Source: Pyramidobacter sp. YE332 (GTDB lineage Bacteria; Synergistota; Synergistia; Synergistales; Dethiosulfovibrionaceae). Taken from it: a stretch of DNA of 64,000 nucleotides. The stretch is from contig NZ_CP133038.1 of assembly GCF_033060595.1 (NCBI RefSeq), positions 930,001-994,000 on the forward strand, read 5' to 3'. The number at the start of each line of letters is the position of its first letter. Position 1 is the first letter of the stretch. Positions 3,121 to 32,235 of this stretch are shown here, piece after piece. The translations under genes were made by a program, and so were the position numbers. The notes under the pieces were generated by a model. It was not told where the DNA came from. It worked only from the letters and a program-made list of their open reading frames with translations, and ran no database searches.

Positions 3121-3325
3121 ATAGAACGCTATCTTTAAAGGAGACCAGCTATTAAAAGTCAAGTAGGAAATTCGAGCTCATGCCCGAAGTATTTCTAGCC
3201 GGTTGCCCGCGTGAAAAAGCCAAAGCGCCCCTGAAAACGGCATATTGGACAGAACTCAGACAAAACAAGCACGCGAACGAGCTCACACGGAAGCGACACG
3301 AGCAGGGAACCCCGCGGGAACAGGA

Positions 3326-4513
3326 TCATTCTATGCCCTGGCGGCGTACCTCGTAAGGTTTGTTGGCTTTCAGAACAGCGTAAATCGTATAAAGCAGTTT
3401 TCTCGACACAGCCCCCAATGCAGTCCCATGCGCTTTCCCCTCACCGCGCTTCTTTTCGTAGAACGCTTTGAAGACAGGATCGCATCTGACTGCTATCAGC
3501 GCCGACATCCAGACAGCTCGTCTCAGGTAGGGGGATCCTTTCTTGGACAAGCGGTTGTGCTGGCCGACATAGTTCCCCGATTGAAACGAAGTCGGATCGA
3601 TCCCGGCAAAGGCGACGAGTTTCTTGGGATTGGAGAAACGACTGATATCGCCGATCTCACCGAGGATCACGGCGCCCGTCGCCGGCCCCACGCCGGGGAC
3701 AGTGAGGATGACAGAGCTAAACTTCCTCAGCTGCCGGGCGATCTTCTTGTCGATCTCATCGATCTGCTTCTCCGTGAATTCGATCTGTTCGATGAGAATC
3801 CTGATTTGAAAGGCAAAGGCATCCGAACACAGAGTCAGGCCGACCGAACGCGCCGCCAGAGACTTGAGCTCACGGGCTTTGTCAGTACCGTGCCGGCCCC
3901 GGCTGGTTTTTCTGAGCAAAGCGGCCAGCGATTTCGTGTTCACGTCGACCACCTGTTCCGGAGTGCCGTACGTCTTGAGAAATGCCTTTGAACTCTCGCC
4001 AAAGACGTTGGAGAACAAGGCAGCATACTCCGGAAACACCTGATCCAGAACGGTGACGACCTGTCGCTTGTAGTCGGCGCAGGAGTCCTTGAGCGACTCT
4101 CTGAAACGGGCCAGATTGCGCAGCGCCATGATATCTTCATCAGCCAGATGAGTTTCGCTGAACGAGCCGAAACGGATCACCTCAGCCACCAGAAAGCAGT
4201 CGACCGCATCCGTTTTCTGCTTCCGGATGTGGAAGTTCCTCAGACTGTCGGATTGGATCGGGTTGATCACATGCAGAGCAAAACCCTGCTCCCGCAGAAA
4301 GGAGTAGAGCGCGAGCCAGTAATGACCGGTCGCCTCCATGCCGATACAGAAAGCCTCCCGCTCGGGAAGACTCTGTTCGAGAAAGAGCAGAAGCTGCTGA
4401 AAGCCCTCCCGAGCATTGGCGAAACGCAGCGACTTGCCGACGTGGCTGCCGTCCTCCCTGATAAGCCCTGCTTCGTGATTGTTCTTCCCGATGTCAATAC
4501 CAAGATAGTACAT
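3326..4513 (-). CDS. IS110-family transposase (DEDD/serine recombinase)
   Basis: 395 residues, full length for the family. The N-terminal RuvC-like DEDD domain starts MYYLGIDIGKNNHEAG (first acidic residue D7), with further acidic residues in GMEATGHYW and KTDAVDC. The C-terminal Transposase_20 domain starts at SVILTVPGVGPATGAVI and holds the SKKGSPYLRR segment with the candidate catalytic serine. It differs from copy 2 only at residue 120 (Glu here, Ala there). IS110 enzymes act with an RNA made from the element's non-coding end. The gene is intact and so possibly active. Confidence 0.95.
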   Translation of the reverse strand: MYYLGIDIGKNNHEAGLIREDGSHVGKSLRFANAREGFQQLLLFLEQSLPEREAFCIGMEATGHYWLALYSFLREQGFALHVINPIQSDSLRNFHIRKQKTDAVDCFLVAEVIRFGSFSETHLADEDIMALRNLARFRESLKDSCADYKRQVVTVLDQVFPEYAALFSNVFGESSKAFLKTYGTPEQVVDVNTKSLAALLRKTSRGRHGTDKARELKSLAARSVGLTLCSDAFAFQIRILIEQIEFTEKQIDEIDKKIARQLRKFSSVILTVPGVGPATGAVILGEIGDISRFSNPKKLVAFAGIDPTSFQSGNYVGQHNRLSKKGSPYLRRAVWMSALIAVRCDPVFKAFYEKKRGEGKAHGTALGAVSRKLLYTIYAVLKANKPYEVRRQGIE

Positions 4514-4767
4514 GAGTCACCTCACCACAACGTATTTGCAGGTGAATTCTCACGCTTCCTGCGGCTCACAACCTCCTTGGACAGACGGAGAAGACCTTCG
4601 GTCTCAACATCCAGCTCATTCGTGAACTGCCGCAAGAGGTGAGGCGCCACTCTCCTTTACGAGGAAATGTCCCCAAGGAAACAAACGGCGACGCTCACAC
4701 TGCATGCTGACATTATCGCAGATTGTCCCGTTCAATAATCTGTCAACAAGTGCGACTACATTATTCT
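4514..4767 (-). ncRNA. Candidate IS110 bridge/seek RNA region, copy 1
   Basis: Non-coding end upstream of the transposase. On the plus strand TGCGGC (4560-4565) pairs with GCCGCA (4629-4634), enclosing CAC/GTG and an apical AGACC-TTC-GGTCT hairpin (4592-4604); the internal loop holds CCTCCTT (4572-4578). A second domain, CGCC (4645-4648) with GGCG (4687-4690), holds TCTCCTTT (4651-4658). The transcript would therefore present AAGGAGG and AAAGGAG, which are complementary to the target strand CCTCCTTT. Two stem-internal-loop modules and this position match the known layout of IS110 bridge RNAs. No transcript is shown, so ends and guide assignment are inference. Confidence 0.55.
4707..4736 (+). 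promoter_or_regulatory. Possible outward promoter at the IS110 right end
   Basis: CTGACA (4707-4712), 18-bp spacer, TTCAAT (4731-4736), pointing toward P19. A start near 4743 would give a leader of about 38 nt including AGGAGG. Moderate match only. Confidence 0.3.
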
Positions 4768-4781
4768 AGGAGGAAGTTCTT

Positions 4782-26463: not shown

Positions 26464-26622
26464 TGATACTATTTCTTAATTAAAAGGCCGAACACAAGGG
26501 GGCTGCGGGGGAGATTCACAAAGCGAGCTGCGCAGACCGCGTAGCGGTCGAGGGAGTCCCGAGCGACTGAACTCCCCCGCGGCCCCCGGAAAACTATGTT
26601 AATACTTTCTATCAAGAATTAG
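26464..26622 (-). repeat. Dispersed hairpin repeat, full copy (minus orientation)
   Basis: Read on the minus strand it starts CCTAATTCTTG, contains GCGGGGGAGT ... CTCCCCCGC arms around a variable centre, and ends GTTCGGCC, T-run, AATTAAGAAATAGTATCA. The same order is seen at 56265-56370; a tail occurs at 1264-1298. The IS427-type element lies at its edge. No ORF inside. Confidence 0.65.
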
Positions 26623-26651
26623 GGCTTGTTTAAAAAACATTTCAGCTTGTA

Positions 26652-27059
26652 TTATTTCAATAAAATAACACTGGCAGCGACAAGAACAAAAGCGAAAAAC
26701 GAAGCGTCAAGTTTGTCATAGCGGGTGAAAATTCTACGGAACCATTTGATTTTCTGAAAGAAACATTCAACCAAGTGTCGTTCCTTGTAAACATGCTCAT
26801 CTATAAACCACGGTTCGGGATTATCGCTCTTCGGCGGGATAGTGTAACTTCCCTCCCGAGAAGTAATGTACTCTCTGATGGCTTGCGAACCGTAAGCCTT
26901 ATCGCCGATGACGTTGCTCCCTCTGATTTCCGCTTGCCCGAGCAAGGACACGGCATGGCGGGAATCGTGGTCATTGCCGGGACTGAGCAGGAGCGCCAGC
27001 GGATTGCCTAAACCATCTACTATCGCATGAATTTTCGTATTCTTGCCGCCTCTGGACAT
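26652..27059 (-). CDS. IS427-type transposase, ORFB (C-terminal part)
   Basis: 135 residues from the first ATG, but normally made as a fusion with ORFA. Carries the second catalytic Asp in GDKAYGS and the catalytic Glu in HLVECFFQKIKWFRR, the DDE signature of IS5 transposases. The frame is -1 relative to ORFA, entered at the slippery site A-AAA-AAG (plus-strand 27077-27083). Confidence 0.88.
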   Translation of the reverse strand: MSRGGKNTKIHAIVDGLGNPLALLLSPGNDHDSRHAVSLLGQAEIRGSNVIGDKAYGSQAIREYITSREGSYTIPPKSDNPEPWFIDEHVYKERHLVECFFQKIKWFRRIFTRYDKLDASFFAFVLVAASVILLK

Positions 27060-27442
27060 GCCAATCGCTTGAGCCCCTTTTTTCCCCCTTCCGGGGTTTT
27101 CCCTCTCCCGTTGGCACTTTGATGTACTTTGCAGGACGTGGAGTCGATAGAGAGATTTTCCATGTCGGCATCAGCGCTTAGGGCGGCAAAGATCGCCTCG
27201 AATATTCCCCGCTGTTTCCACAGCCTGAAACGTGCGTAAACTGCCTGCCATTTGCCGTAACGCTCCGGAAGATCTCTCCATGGCGCTCCACTTCTGGCAA
27301 GCCACAGAATCCCATTGATGATCCTGCGGTTATCGTATTTTGCCGGGCGTCCACGTTGACCTGATTTCGGGTGTTCGGGCGGCAGCATTCTCTTGATTCG
27401 ATTCCACTCGCTGGAGGTCAGTTCATATCTTCTCTCTTCCAT
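27020..27442 (-). CDS. IS427-type transposase, ORFA (N-terminal part)
   Basis: 140 residues: DUF4096-type DNA-binding region (RRYELTSSEWNRIKRMLPPE, RRIINGILWLARSGAPWRDLPERYG) and the first catalytic Asp in LSIDSTSCKVHQ. It overlaps ORFB by about 40 bp with the classic A6G slippery heptamer in the overlap, so the active transposase is the frameshift fusion ORFAB. Confidence 0.88.
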   Translation of the reverse strand: MEERRYELTSSEWNRIKRMLPPEHPKSGQRGRPAKYDNRRIINGILWLARSGAPWRDLPERYGKWQAVYARFRLWKQRGIFEAIFAALSADADMENLSIDSTSCKVHQSANGRGKTPEGGKKGLKRLACPEAARIRKFMR

Positions 27443-27518
27443 GAGAAAAGTTTAAGCGATTGGATCGATTTAGGCAACTTTGACGTTTTTTAAACAAGCC
27501 CTAGTCTGAAAACGGCGT

Positions 27519-30548: not shown

Positions 30549-30585
30549 TGACGCAGCGCGCGTTTTGAGGTATGATCGATCATAT
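30549..30585 (+). promoter_or_regulatory. Promoter with palindromic operator before TetR gene
   Basis: GTGACG (30549-30554), 17-bp spacer, TATGAT (30572-30577). The -10 is inside the perfect 14-bp palindrome TATGATCGATCATA (30572-30585), a plausible autoregulatory TetR site. Confidence 0.55.
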
Positions 30586-30666: not shown

Positions 30667-31194
30667 ATGGATTTTACGAAGAAAGAAATACAGAGCGCGT
30701 TCTGGCAGCTTCTGGAAGAGCGCCCGTTCGGCAAGATCACGGTGAAAGCGGTCGTCGCGCGCTGCGGCGTGAACCGCAACACGTTTTACTATCACTTTCA
30801 GGATCTTCGCGATCTGCTCCGCACGTCCGTGCTCGGCTGGCTCGACGAGCTGTTCGCCGACGGAGCGGGCGCGGCGGCGGTCGTCGCCGCGCTGTCGCGG
30901 CGCCGGGCGGCCGTCATGCACGTCTACAGGTCGCTGCCGCGCGAGACGTTCATCGAGGAATTGGGCGTCTGGGTGCGCTACGCCGTGGCCCGCTGCGTCG
31001 GCGCCGGGGAAGGCGGGCTTTTCGCGGAGAAGGAGAACCGGGAACTGCTGCTTTCCGTGTGCCGCTTCGCGCTGGCGGGGTTCCTGCTGGATTGGCTGGA
31101 AGGGGACATGAGCTCCGATTTGGGGAAAAGTCTGTCGCGCTGTGCGGAACTGCTGAAAAATTTCTCCCTCCCTCCCTCCCTCCCTCCCTCCTGA
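30667..31194 (+). CDS. TetR-family regulator with repeat-encoded C-terminus
   Basis: 175 residues. The HTH is KITVKAVVARCGVNRNTFYYHFQDLRDLL (about 23-51), typical of the TetR/AcrR group. The last ten residues (FSLPPSLPPS) are encoded by seven tandem CTCC units, so copy-number change would shift the reading frame and alter the tail. ATG 30667 lies soon after GGAAAGG. Target genes are not evident; it stands alone between two terminators or promoters. Confidence 0.85.
   Translation: MDFTKKEIQSAFWQLLEERPFGKITVKAVVARCGVNRNTFYYHFQDLRDLLRTSVLGWLDELFADGAGAAAVVAALSRRRAAVMHVYRSLPRETFIEELGVWVRYAVARCVGAGEGGLFAEKENRELLLSVCRFALAGFLLDWLEGDMSSDLGKSLSRCAELLKNFSLPPSLPPS
31164..31191 (+). repeat. Tetranucleotide simple sequence repeat (CTCC)7
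   Basis: Seven perfect CTCC units, directly before the stop codon of the TetR gene. Such tracts mutate by strand slippage; each unit gained or lost changes the frame. Confidence 0.95.
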
Positions 31195-31286
31195 TTCGAA
31201 AGCGCGTCGCCTGTGACTGCGGCGTCGGGATCGCGTGCGGGGCGGTGGAATTTCCCGGCAAGACGGAGAAGCTCTTTTTCTCCCTC

Positions 31287-31314
31287 TTGCTTTTTTTGTC
31301 CTTTGTGGTATCAT
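31287..31314 (+). promoter_or_regulatory. Promoter of the 47-residue protein
   Basis: TTGCTT (31287-31292), 16-bp spacer, TATCAT (31309-31314), about 50 bases before the ATG at 31364. Confidence 0.45.
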
Positions 31315-31363
31315 CCAACTGTCGGTTAATGCTTTATCATGATAAACTATTAACGGAGGAGCG

Positions 31364-31507
31364 ATGCCTATGGAGACCATGAAAGTTGACGTGCCGGCGG
31401 AAGTGAAGGAGCGTTTCGACGCCATGCTGGCCCGGTTTTCCCGCGAGAACAACGTGACGCTGGTCGTCCGCCCCGACCTCCCCGCCGAAGAGCAGCCGCG
31501 CCACTGA
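31364..31507 (+). CDS. Small protein of unknown function (47 residues)
   Basis: Starts MPMETMKVDVPAEVKERF and ends PAEEQPRH. It has its own promoter-like sequence and a strong GGAGGAG just before the ATG, and codon use resembles neighbouring genes. Mixed charge, predicted helical centre (EVKERFDAMLARFSRENN), no membrane segment or signal. I do not recognise a family. A long hairpin follows. The ATG at 31370 is an alternative start. Confidence 0.6.
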   Translation: MPMETMKVDVPAEVKERFDAMLARFSRENNVTLVVRPDLPAEEQPRH

Positions 31508-31515
31508 TATTGGTA

Positions 31516-31567
31516 TTCAACGCCAGAGGCCCGGCGGTCACGCGACCGCCGGGCCTCTGGCGTCGAA
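31516..31567. terminator. Bidirectional hairpin between convergent genes
   Basis: Perfect 19-bp stem (31521-31539 with 31544-31562), loop ACGC, between genes ending at 31507 (plus) and 31570 (minus). No long T-run. Confidence 0.65.
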
Positions 31568-31569
31568 TG

Positions 31570-32235
31570 TCAGGATCGGACGAAGTGCACGTTCTCGCCG
31601 GCTCCGGCGCGCCCGGATCTGAACTGGGCCATGGGCTGGTCTTTGGCGGGGAAGCCGAGCGCCACGGTGATCATGACGCGGCGCTCGGCGGGCAGGCGCA
31701 GGAACTCGCGGATGGCCGGCTCGACGATCAGCGTGTAGGCGATGATGCAGCTGGCAAGGCCGTGGCCGGCGGCGGACAAGCACAGGGTCTGCGTGAACAT
31801 GCCGATGTCGAGGAGATGCAGGGGGCTGGGCTCGCCGTCCATGCAGACGATGGCGGCGGCCGGCGCGTCGAAGAAGCGCAGGCAGCGGCCGATGAAGCTT
31901 TTCGGCTCCCAGCCCTGGCGCTCGAGAACGGGCGCCAGGGCGCCGCTCAGTTCGCGGGCGCGGGCCTGCCACGCGGGCATTTCCCGCCCGGCGTGCATGG
32001 GCACGCCCCGGCCCTGACGAAAGGCTTCGTCCATCTTCGCGCGCAGGGCGTCGAGGCGTTCTCCGGCGACGACGTAGACTTCCCACGGCTGGGCGTTTTT
32101 GGCCGAGGGCGAGAACGTGGCGTATTTCAGCACCGACGCGAGCAGCTCCGGCCCCGGCGGCGTGTTTTCGAAGGCGCGGCAGGACCGGCGCGCGGCGATG
32201 CCGGCCAGCAGGCCCATGGTTTCTTCATTGCACAT
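31570..32235 (-). CDS. Nitroreductase family protein
   Basis: 221 residues. FMN-binding nitroreductase fold: RRSCRAF near residue 17, FSPSAKNAQPWEVYVV, then GMFTQTLCLSAAGHGLASCIIAY and the C-terminal VALGFPAKD. These enzymes reduce nitro groups, quinones or flavins with NAD(P)H. ATG 32235 is preceded on the minus strand by GGAGG, which sets the start. It stands alone, divergent from the gene at 32393. Confidence 0.9.
   Translation of the reverse strand: MCNEETMGLLAGIAARRSCRAFENTPPGPELLASVLKYATFSPSAKNAQPWEVYVVAGERLDALRAKMDEAFRQGRGVPMHAGREMPAWQARARELSGALAPVLERQGWEPKSFIGRCLRFFDAPAAAIVCMDGEPSPLHLLDIGMFTQTLCLSAAGHGLASCIIAYTLIVEPAIREFLRLPAERRVMITVALGFPAKDQPMAQFRSGRAGAGENVHFVRS

Follow-up and report, generated by a model that had tools for sequence, protein, structure and literature searches.

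The gene for a TetR-type regulator in Pyramidobacter sp. YE332 ends in a perfect (CTCC)7 tract, which is probably hypervariable through slippage and exchanges one C-terminal tail of this DhaS-like TetR protein for another with mild or no effect. Across the assemblies compared, tract length differs both within the species and within the genus, and two reading frames are in use after it; slippage is the mutational step that we infer. A plain on/off switch of the regulator is unlikely, judging from the predicted fold of the protein.

The regulator (175 aa, recognized from its open reading frame and from Pfam) is encoded at 30667..31194 on the + strand of the window, the whole 64,000-nucleotide stretch analysed. 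The tract lies within this gene at 31164..31191, with seven perfect units on the + strand and (GGAG)7 on the - strand, as seen by direct reading and by Tandem Repeats Finder (100% matches, score 56). Its first C is the third base of codon 166 (F166), the other 27 bases encode SLPPSLPPS, and TGA follows directly. The first-pass annotation had placed a (CTCC)7 tract at 31164-31191 at the end of a TetR regulator, and direct reading, Tandem Repeats Finder and the Pfam TetR_N match all agree with that description.

Such a tract is exceptional in this genome. The 344 kb of YE332 sequence examined (12% of the genome, window included) contain no second tetranucleotide array of at least four units and no other array with a 3- to 8-bp unit over the thresholds used; the other simple repeats are 14 homopolymer runs of 8-9 and five dinucleotide arrays. 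Eight simulated samples from a third-order Markov model of the same 344 kb contain no array of more than three units, and the model expects about 6e-11 (CTCC)7 tracts per genome at one phase. The model over-predicts three-unit arrays, expecting 9.1 where there is one, so the estimate of chance occurrence errs on the generous side. The tract is not due to chance. Arrays of (CTCC)3 or longer occur in three of the 13 genomes searched (YE332 included, C12-8 not among them), always at the regulator-gene locus only, and the polypyrimidine tracts of at least 28 nt elsewhere in the genus are, among the matches listed, TTC-rich stretches with no CTCC arrays. A copy sought in viral contigs gave no matches. 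As a cause of instability, defective mismatch repair, examined through MutS1 alone, is not indicated, MutS1 being present above its cut-off.

Strain YE332 comes from cattle rumen and has a genome of 2,795,328 bases, with 2,777,081 bases in the larger contig; its average nucleotide identity to strain C12-8 is 99.01% (PMC11008178). C12-8 is itself named in an excerpt of PMC12366334, which refers neither to YE332 nor to TetR. In the assemblies of this one strain pair, the tract has seven units (28 nt) in YE332 and nine (36 nt) in C12-8, and thus the refuting outcome named in the first-pass annotation, an identical unit number in all strains, does not hold. The surrounding DNA is nearly invariant: between 27502 and 31525 the two strains differ, besides the tract, by one substitution and one 1-nt insertion in 4.0 kb. 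A tract of 28-36 nt can serve as a strain marker, separating two strains that are about 99.95% identical across the surrounding 4.0 kb. Over a longer alignment, from 63.5 kb upstream of the window through window position 31628, 92,644 aligned bases contain 372 mismatches (0.40%) and 42 indels, and only two of the indels reach 4 nt, one being the 8-nt difference at the tract and the other 23 nt long. Many of the indels fall in one diverged stretch at about 1159-1746, where a 3-nt AAG unit differs too, and eight more substitutions lie at 31526-31618, the site of an extra island in C12-8. Larger differences are found as well: YE332 has about 880 bases at 26622-27502 that C12-8 lacks at the equivalent position, and likewise about 1.6 kb at 3143-4768, next to the indel-rich stretch.

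It is very unlikely that the difference between seven and nine units is an assembly artefact and that the tract is stable within the species. This possibility arises from the YE332 assembly having been made from PacBio RS II reads alone (PMC11008178; raw reads SRP459544) and from six G/C runs in which YE332 is one base short compared with C12-8, shortfalls that look like long-read errors; for these reasons the unit count of YE332 could be off. The difference at the tract, however, is of two whole 4-nt units, and independent differences are found in two other Pyramidobacter genomes, G001 (12 nt, three units) and G003 (49 nt, in which the internal unit is another one). Shortfalls in G/C runs are expected of an unpolished long-read assembly, and some YE332 genes may be falsely frameshifted for that reason.

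The G003 tract mixes CTCC with CCTCC, so that two unit lengths have expanded there. In a search of the genus, the DNA of the locus was matched in five of six genomes, in G004 by a 99-base piece at 73% only; it was not matched in G002, and G002 and G004 are drafts less than 85% complete. Four genomes (YE332, C12-8, G001, and G003) therefore provide the four alleles discussed here, each taken from an assembly rather than from reads; C12-8, which also turned up in the genus search, enters only once.

Because every 4-nt step shifts the frame, the length of the tract determines what follows F166. With a tract of 1 mod 3, as in YE332 (28 nt) and G003 (49 nt), the protein stops immediately at 31192..31194, the codon being TGA in YE332, C12-8, and G003 and TAG in G001. 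With a tract of 0 mod 3, as in C12-8 (36 nt) and G001 (12 nt), seven residues are added: this frame (31192..31216) gives DSKARRL followed by TGA and is the one used by C12-8, while its equivalent in G001 is SSKAPRL followed by TAA. The third frame, for a tract of 2 mod 3, is a read-through at 31191..31382 with a hydrophobic stretch, which ends inside the next small open reading frame and adds 63 residues in YE332, 66 in G003, and only nine in G001. Two different C-terminal frames are in use among the four alleles, and no allele of the 2 mod 3 class is seen among them, a class with a chance of about 20% of being missed in four alleles drawn at random. The expectation of the first-pass annotation that a slippage-type change of length shifts the frame and replaces the C-terminus is supported by comparison of the alleles of 12, 28, 36, and 49 nt. 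TGA and TAG differ at two bases, yet both are stops; this one comparison hints that the immediate-stop frame may be the one kept by selection and that tail length matters.

Residues 1-166 are kept at every tract length, and two of the three frames end no more than seven residues after the tract. The N-terminus matches TetR_N (PF00440) above the cut-off (E 4.5e-9), and the C-terminal part matches TetR_C_8 just below it (25.8 against 26.1 bits). Assignment to the TetR family follows from the TetR_N helix-turn-helix together with an all-helical C-terminal domain, and the best fold matches are TetR regulators. In an AlphaFold2 model built on 43 sequences (mean pLDDT 88.4), there are nine helices, of which the last comprises residues 152-164; the chain is non-helical from 165 on and pLDDT falls to about 60 for residues 171-175. 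The tract lies past the last predicted helix, so the DNA-binding and ligand domains would be kept at every length. The closest solved relative by sequence is 4mk6, a probable dihydroxyacetone kinase regulator (E 1.4e-22), and by fold it is 2iu5_B (DhaS; TM 0.68), but the score against the DhaS equivalog TIGR02366 is 44.1 bits against a cut-off of 129. By these matches the regulator is related to DhaS but is not filed as DhaS.

Sequence conservation within the genus is uneven. YE332, G001, and G003 share identical residues 1-47, a stretch that includes the helix-turn-helix, and the remainder varies; dN/dS over codons 1-165 for the three pairs of these genomes is 0.95, 0.52, and 0.42, from 23, 31, and 28 changes. 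These comparisons indicate that the DNA-binding part is held and the remainder of the regulator drifts, with constraint on the body that is moderate at most. The end of the protein is variable in the family as a whole. Of 78 homologues with a full open reading frame, 73 besides C12-8 have an alignment that reaches query residue 140 or further; in these 73 the chain ends 0-35 residues past the equivalent of F166, with a median of 13 and no ending common to all; an ending like GSGERAFLK is found in many of the homologue rows listed. The last stretch being variable in the family, the SLPP repeats of Pyramidobacter occupy a variable last stretch.

Taken together, these features are best explained if a DhaS-like TetR gene carries at its 3' end a coding microsatellite that is hypervariable. 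Units of 4 nt would be gained or lost by slipped-strand mispairing, and each step would shift the frame to an immediate stop, to a short charged tail (...DSKARRL), or to the long read-through. The DNA-binding and ligand domains would work at every tract length, and changes in the tail would be tolerated, altering stability or activity modestly if at all; disturbance of the regulator would be expected in the 2 mod 3 state only. If the variation is neutral, the locus is a clean example of a microsatellite that is tolerated because it lies past the folded domain.

The first-pass annotation had gone further and suggested a possible phase-variation switch of a transcription factor. The tract does vary in length, change the frame, and replace the tail. 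It is a perfect tract longer than expected by chance, its units differ between close strains, and its length alters the frame, which are features of a contingency locus. A switch is possible; against it, residues 1-166 are kept, the tract is past the last helix, and in two of the three frames the chain stops at most seven residues after the tract. A long aberrant tail would arise in the 2 mod 3 frame alone, a class absent from the four alleles, with residues 1-166 intact there as well.

Under selection as a contingency locus, cells would make a working regulator at tract lengths of 0 or 1 mod 3 and, at 2 mod 3, one disturbed by the 63-residue hydrophobic read-through, and switching between the two would make expression of the targets heterogeneous. 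This is unlikely, but several observations are in its favor: the tract has the same position in three Pyramidobacter genomes and in the second strain, a 9-nt in-frame indel leaves the long frame open in both YE332 and G003, and the tract stands out because no other array of a 3- to 8-bp unit passes the thresholds in the 12% of the genome sampled. Against it, the long frame is closed after nine residues in G001, none of the four alleles is 2 mod 3, and the coding signal of this frame is weak: 17 changes between YE332 and G003 give dN/dS 0.45, where the other two frames give 1.6 and 0.67. Known switches usually have their tract in the promoter or near the start of the gene, which also weighs against a contingency locus here. 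A more elaborate version is decidedly doubtful: a three-state Synergistota contingency locus in which slippage swaps the C-terminal tail of a TetR regulator instead of turning the gene off, with one state adding the 63-residue hydrophobic extension into the next open reading frame, so that a rumen commensal would diversify a whole regulon at once. If switching does occur, this would be a phase-variable regulator in Synergistota.

The tract might instead act as nucleic acid, either through a G-quadruplex of the G-rich (GGGA)n strand or through C-rich RNA that sets the 3' end of the message, and its length would then tune expression whatever the frame. The - strand has six runs of GGG separated by single bases, and a pure polypyrimidine stretch of 32-53 nt is present in three of the four alleles. 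From the count of GGG runs alone, a G-quadruplex on the - strand is possible for seven and nine units, but the three units of G001 supply too few runs for an intramolecular four-run quadruplex. Hairpins of the G-rich strand are not predicted for three alleles, by a method that does not model quadruplexes. Expected pairing between the tract and the Shine-Dalgarno sequence is approximately zero in three natural alleles and 0.56 pairs in G003, and the predicted fold of the 301-nt region does not surpass that of shuffled sequences (z 0.44). A nucleic-acid role is accordingly improbable, and the idea that the CUCC tract masks the downstream Shine-Dalgarno was rejected on the same two results, pairing near zero in three of the four alleles and a fold no better than shuffles. 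A Rho utilization site was rejected as well: the Rho RNA-binding domain PF07497 was not found in YE332 or in the other four Pyramidobacter genomes searched, and a Rho site is unlikely because the domain is found in none of these five compared with 13 of the 21 genomes searched. PF07497 was not found in G006, G012, and G015 either, and two of the five Pyramidobacter genomes are less than 85% complete; Pyramidobacter may have lost Rho.

Upstream of the regulator gene is a gene with an SLH domain, which resembles iron-uptake porins below the cut-off of that model. Downstream, at 31364..31507 on the + strand, is a 47-aa open reading frame of no known family, present in three of 41 genomes, all Pyramidobacter, with 94-100% identity among the three; its protein is identical in YE332 and G001 despite three synonymous changes. 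It is possibly a neighbor or target of the regulator. A good Shine-Dalgarno and a perfect 14-bp palindrome, TTTATCATGATAAA (31333-31346), precede it, and another perfect 14-bp palindrome, TATGATCGATCATA (30571-30584), precedes the regulator gene; both could be operators. The one terminator-like hairpin found 3' of the regulator gene (31265..31283, + strand) is weak and no better than chance, shuffles averaging 1.6. No Rfam family is above its gathering score between 30400 and 31700, and the six sub-threshold matches all overlap a terminator hairpin at about 31515-31568. Beyond the 47-aa open reading frame, a nitroreductase gene lies on the other strand. Between this gene and the terminator of the 47-aa open reading frame, C12-8 has its extra island of about 1.6 kb (L028:5970-7573), which YE332 is without; it encodes a HigA-type antitoxin (TIGR02607) fused to an IrrE/ImmA-like peptidase domain (PF06114), preceded by a 107-aa open reading frame of no family, and the start of the island is alike in G003 by eye.

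No report of a phase-variable regulator in Synergistota was found in the open-licence literature on Pyramidobacter phase variation or on Synergistetes simple sequence repeats, the latter judged by title and the start of the abstract. Tetranucleotide tracts within genes that vary between strains are already known from Haemophilus influenzae, from icaC of Staphylococcus aureus, and from Histophilus somni. According to an excerpt of PMC2651432, most of 16 H. influenzae genomes have 12-14 tetranucleotide loci, while two have 18 and 21. The YE332 tract is like these phase-variable loci in being a perfect tetranucleotide tract within a gene, with a length that varies between strains and 4-nt steps that change the frame. 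It differs in number and carrier, since H. influenzae has many loci, often in host-interaction genes (same excerpt, PMC2651432), while in YE332 the 12% of the genome sampled has one tract only and its carrier is a regulator; its position past the folded domain also means that the tail would be changed and the protein not abolished. In icaC, as described in part of PMC4117637, a simple tetranucleotide tandem repeat in one gene likewise expands and contracts; the change inactivates icaC and has been shown to be reversible, while in YE332 two of the three frames would not be expected to inactivate the protein. A likeness in position is found in Histophilus somni, where an excerpt of PMC6889271 has a tetranucleotide tract overlapping the C-terminal end of a gene and gives mixed lengths within one single-colony culture; those tracts are 79-250 bp, compared with 28 bp in YE332, and the type of protein differs. 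What seems less usual in YE332 is that the carrier is a regulator, that the tract is past the folded domain, and that it is isolated.
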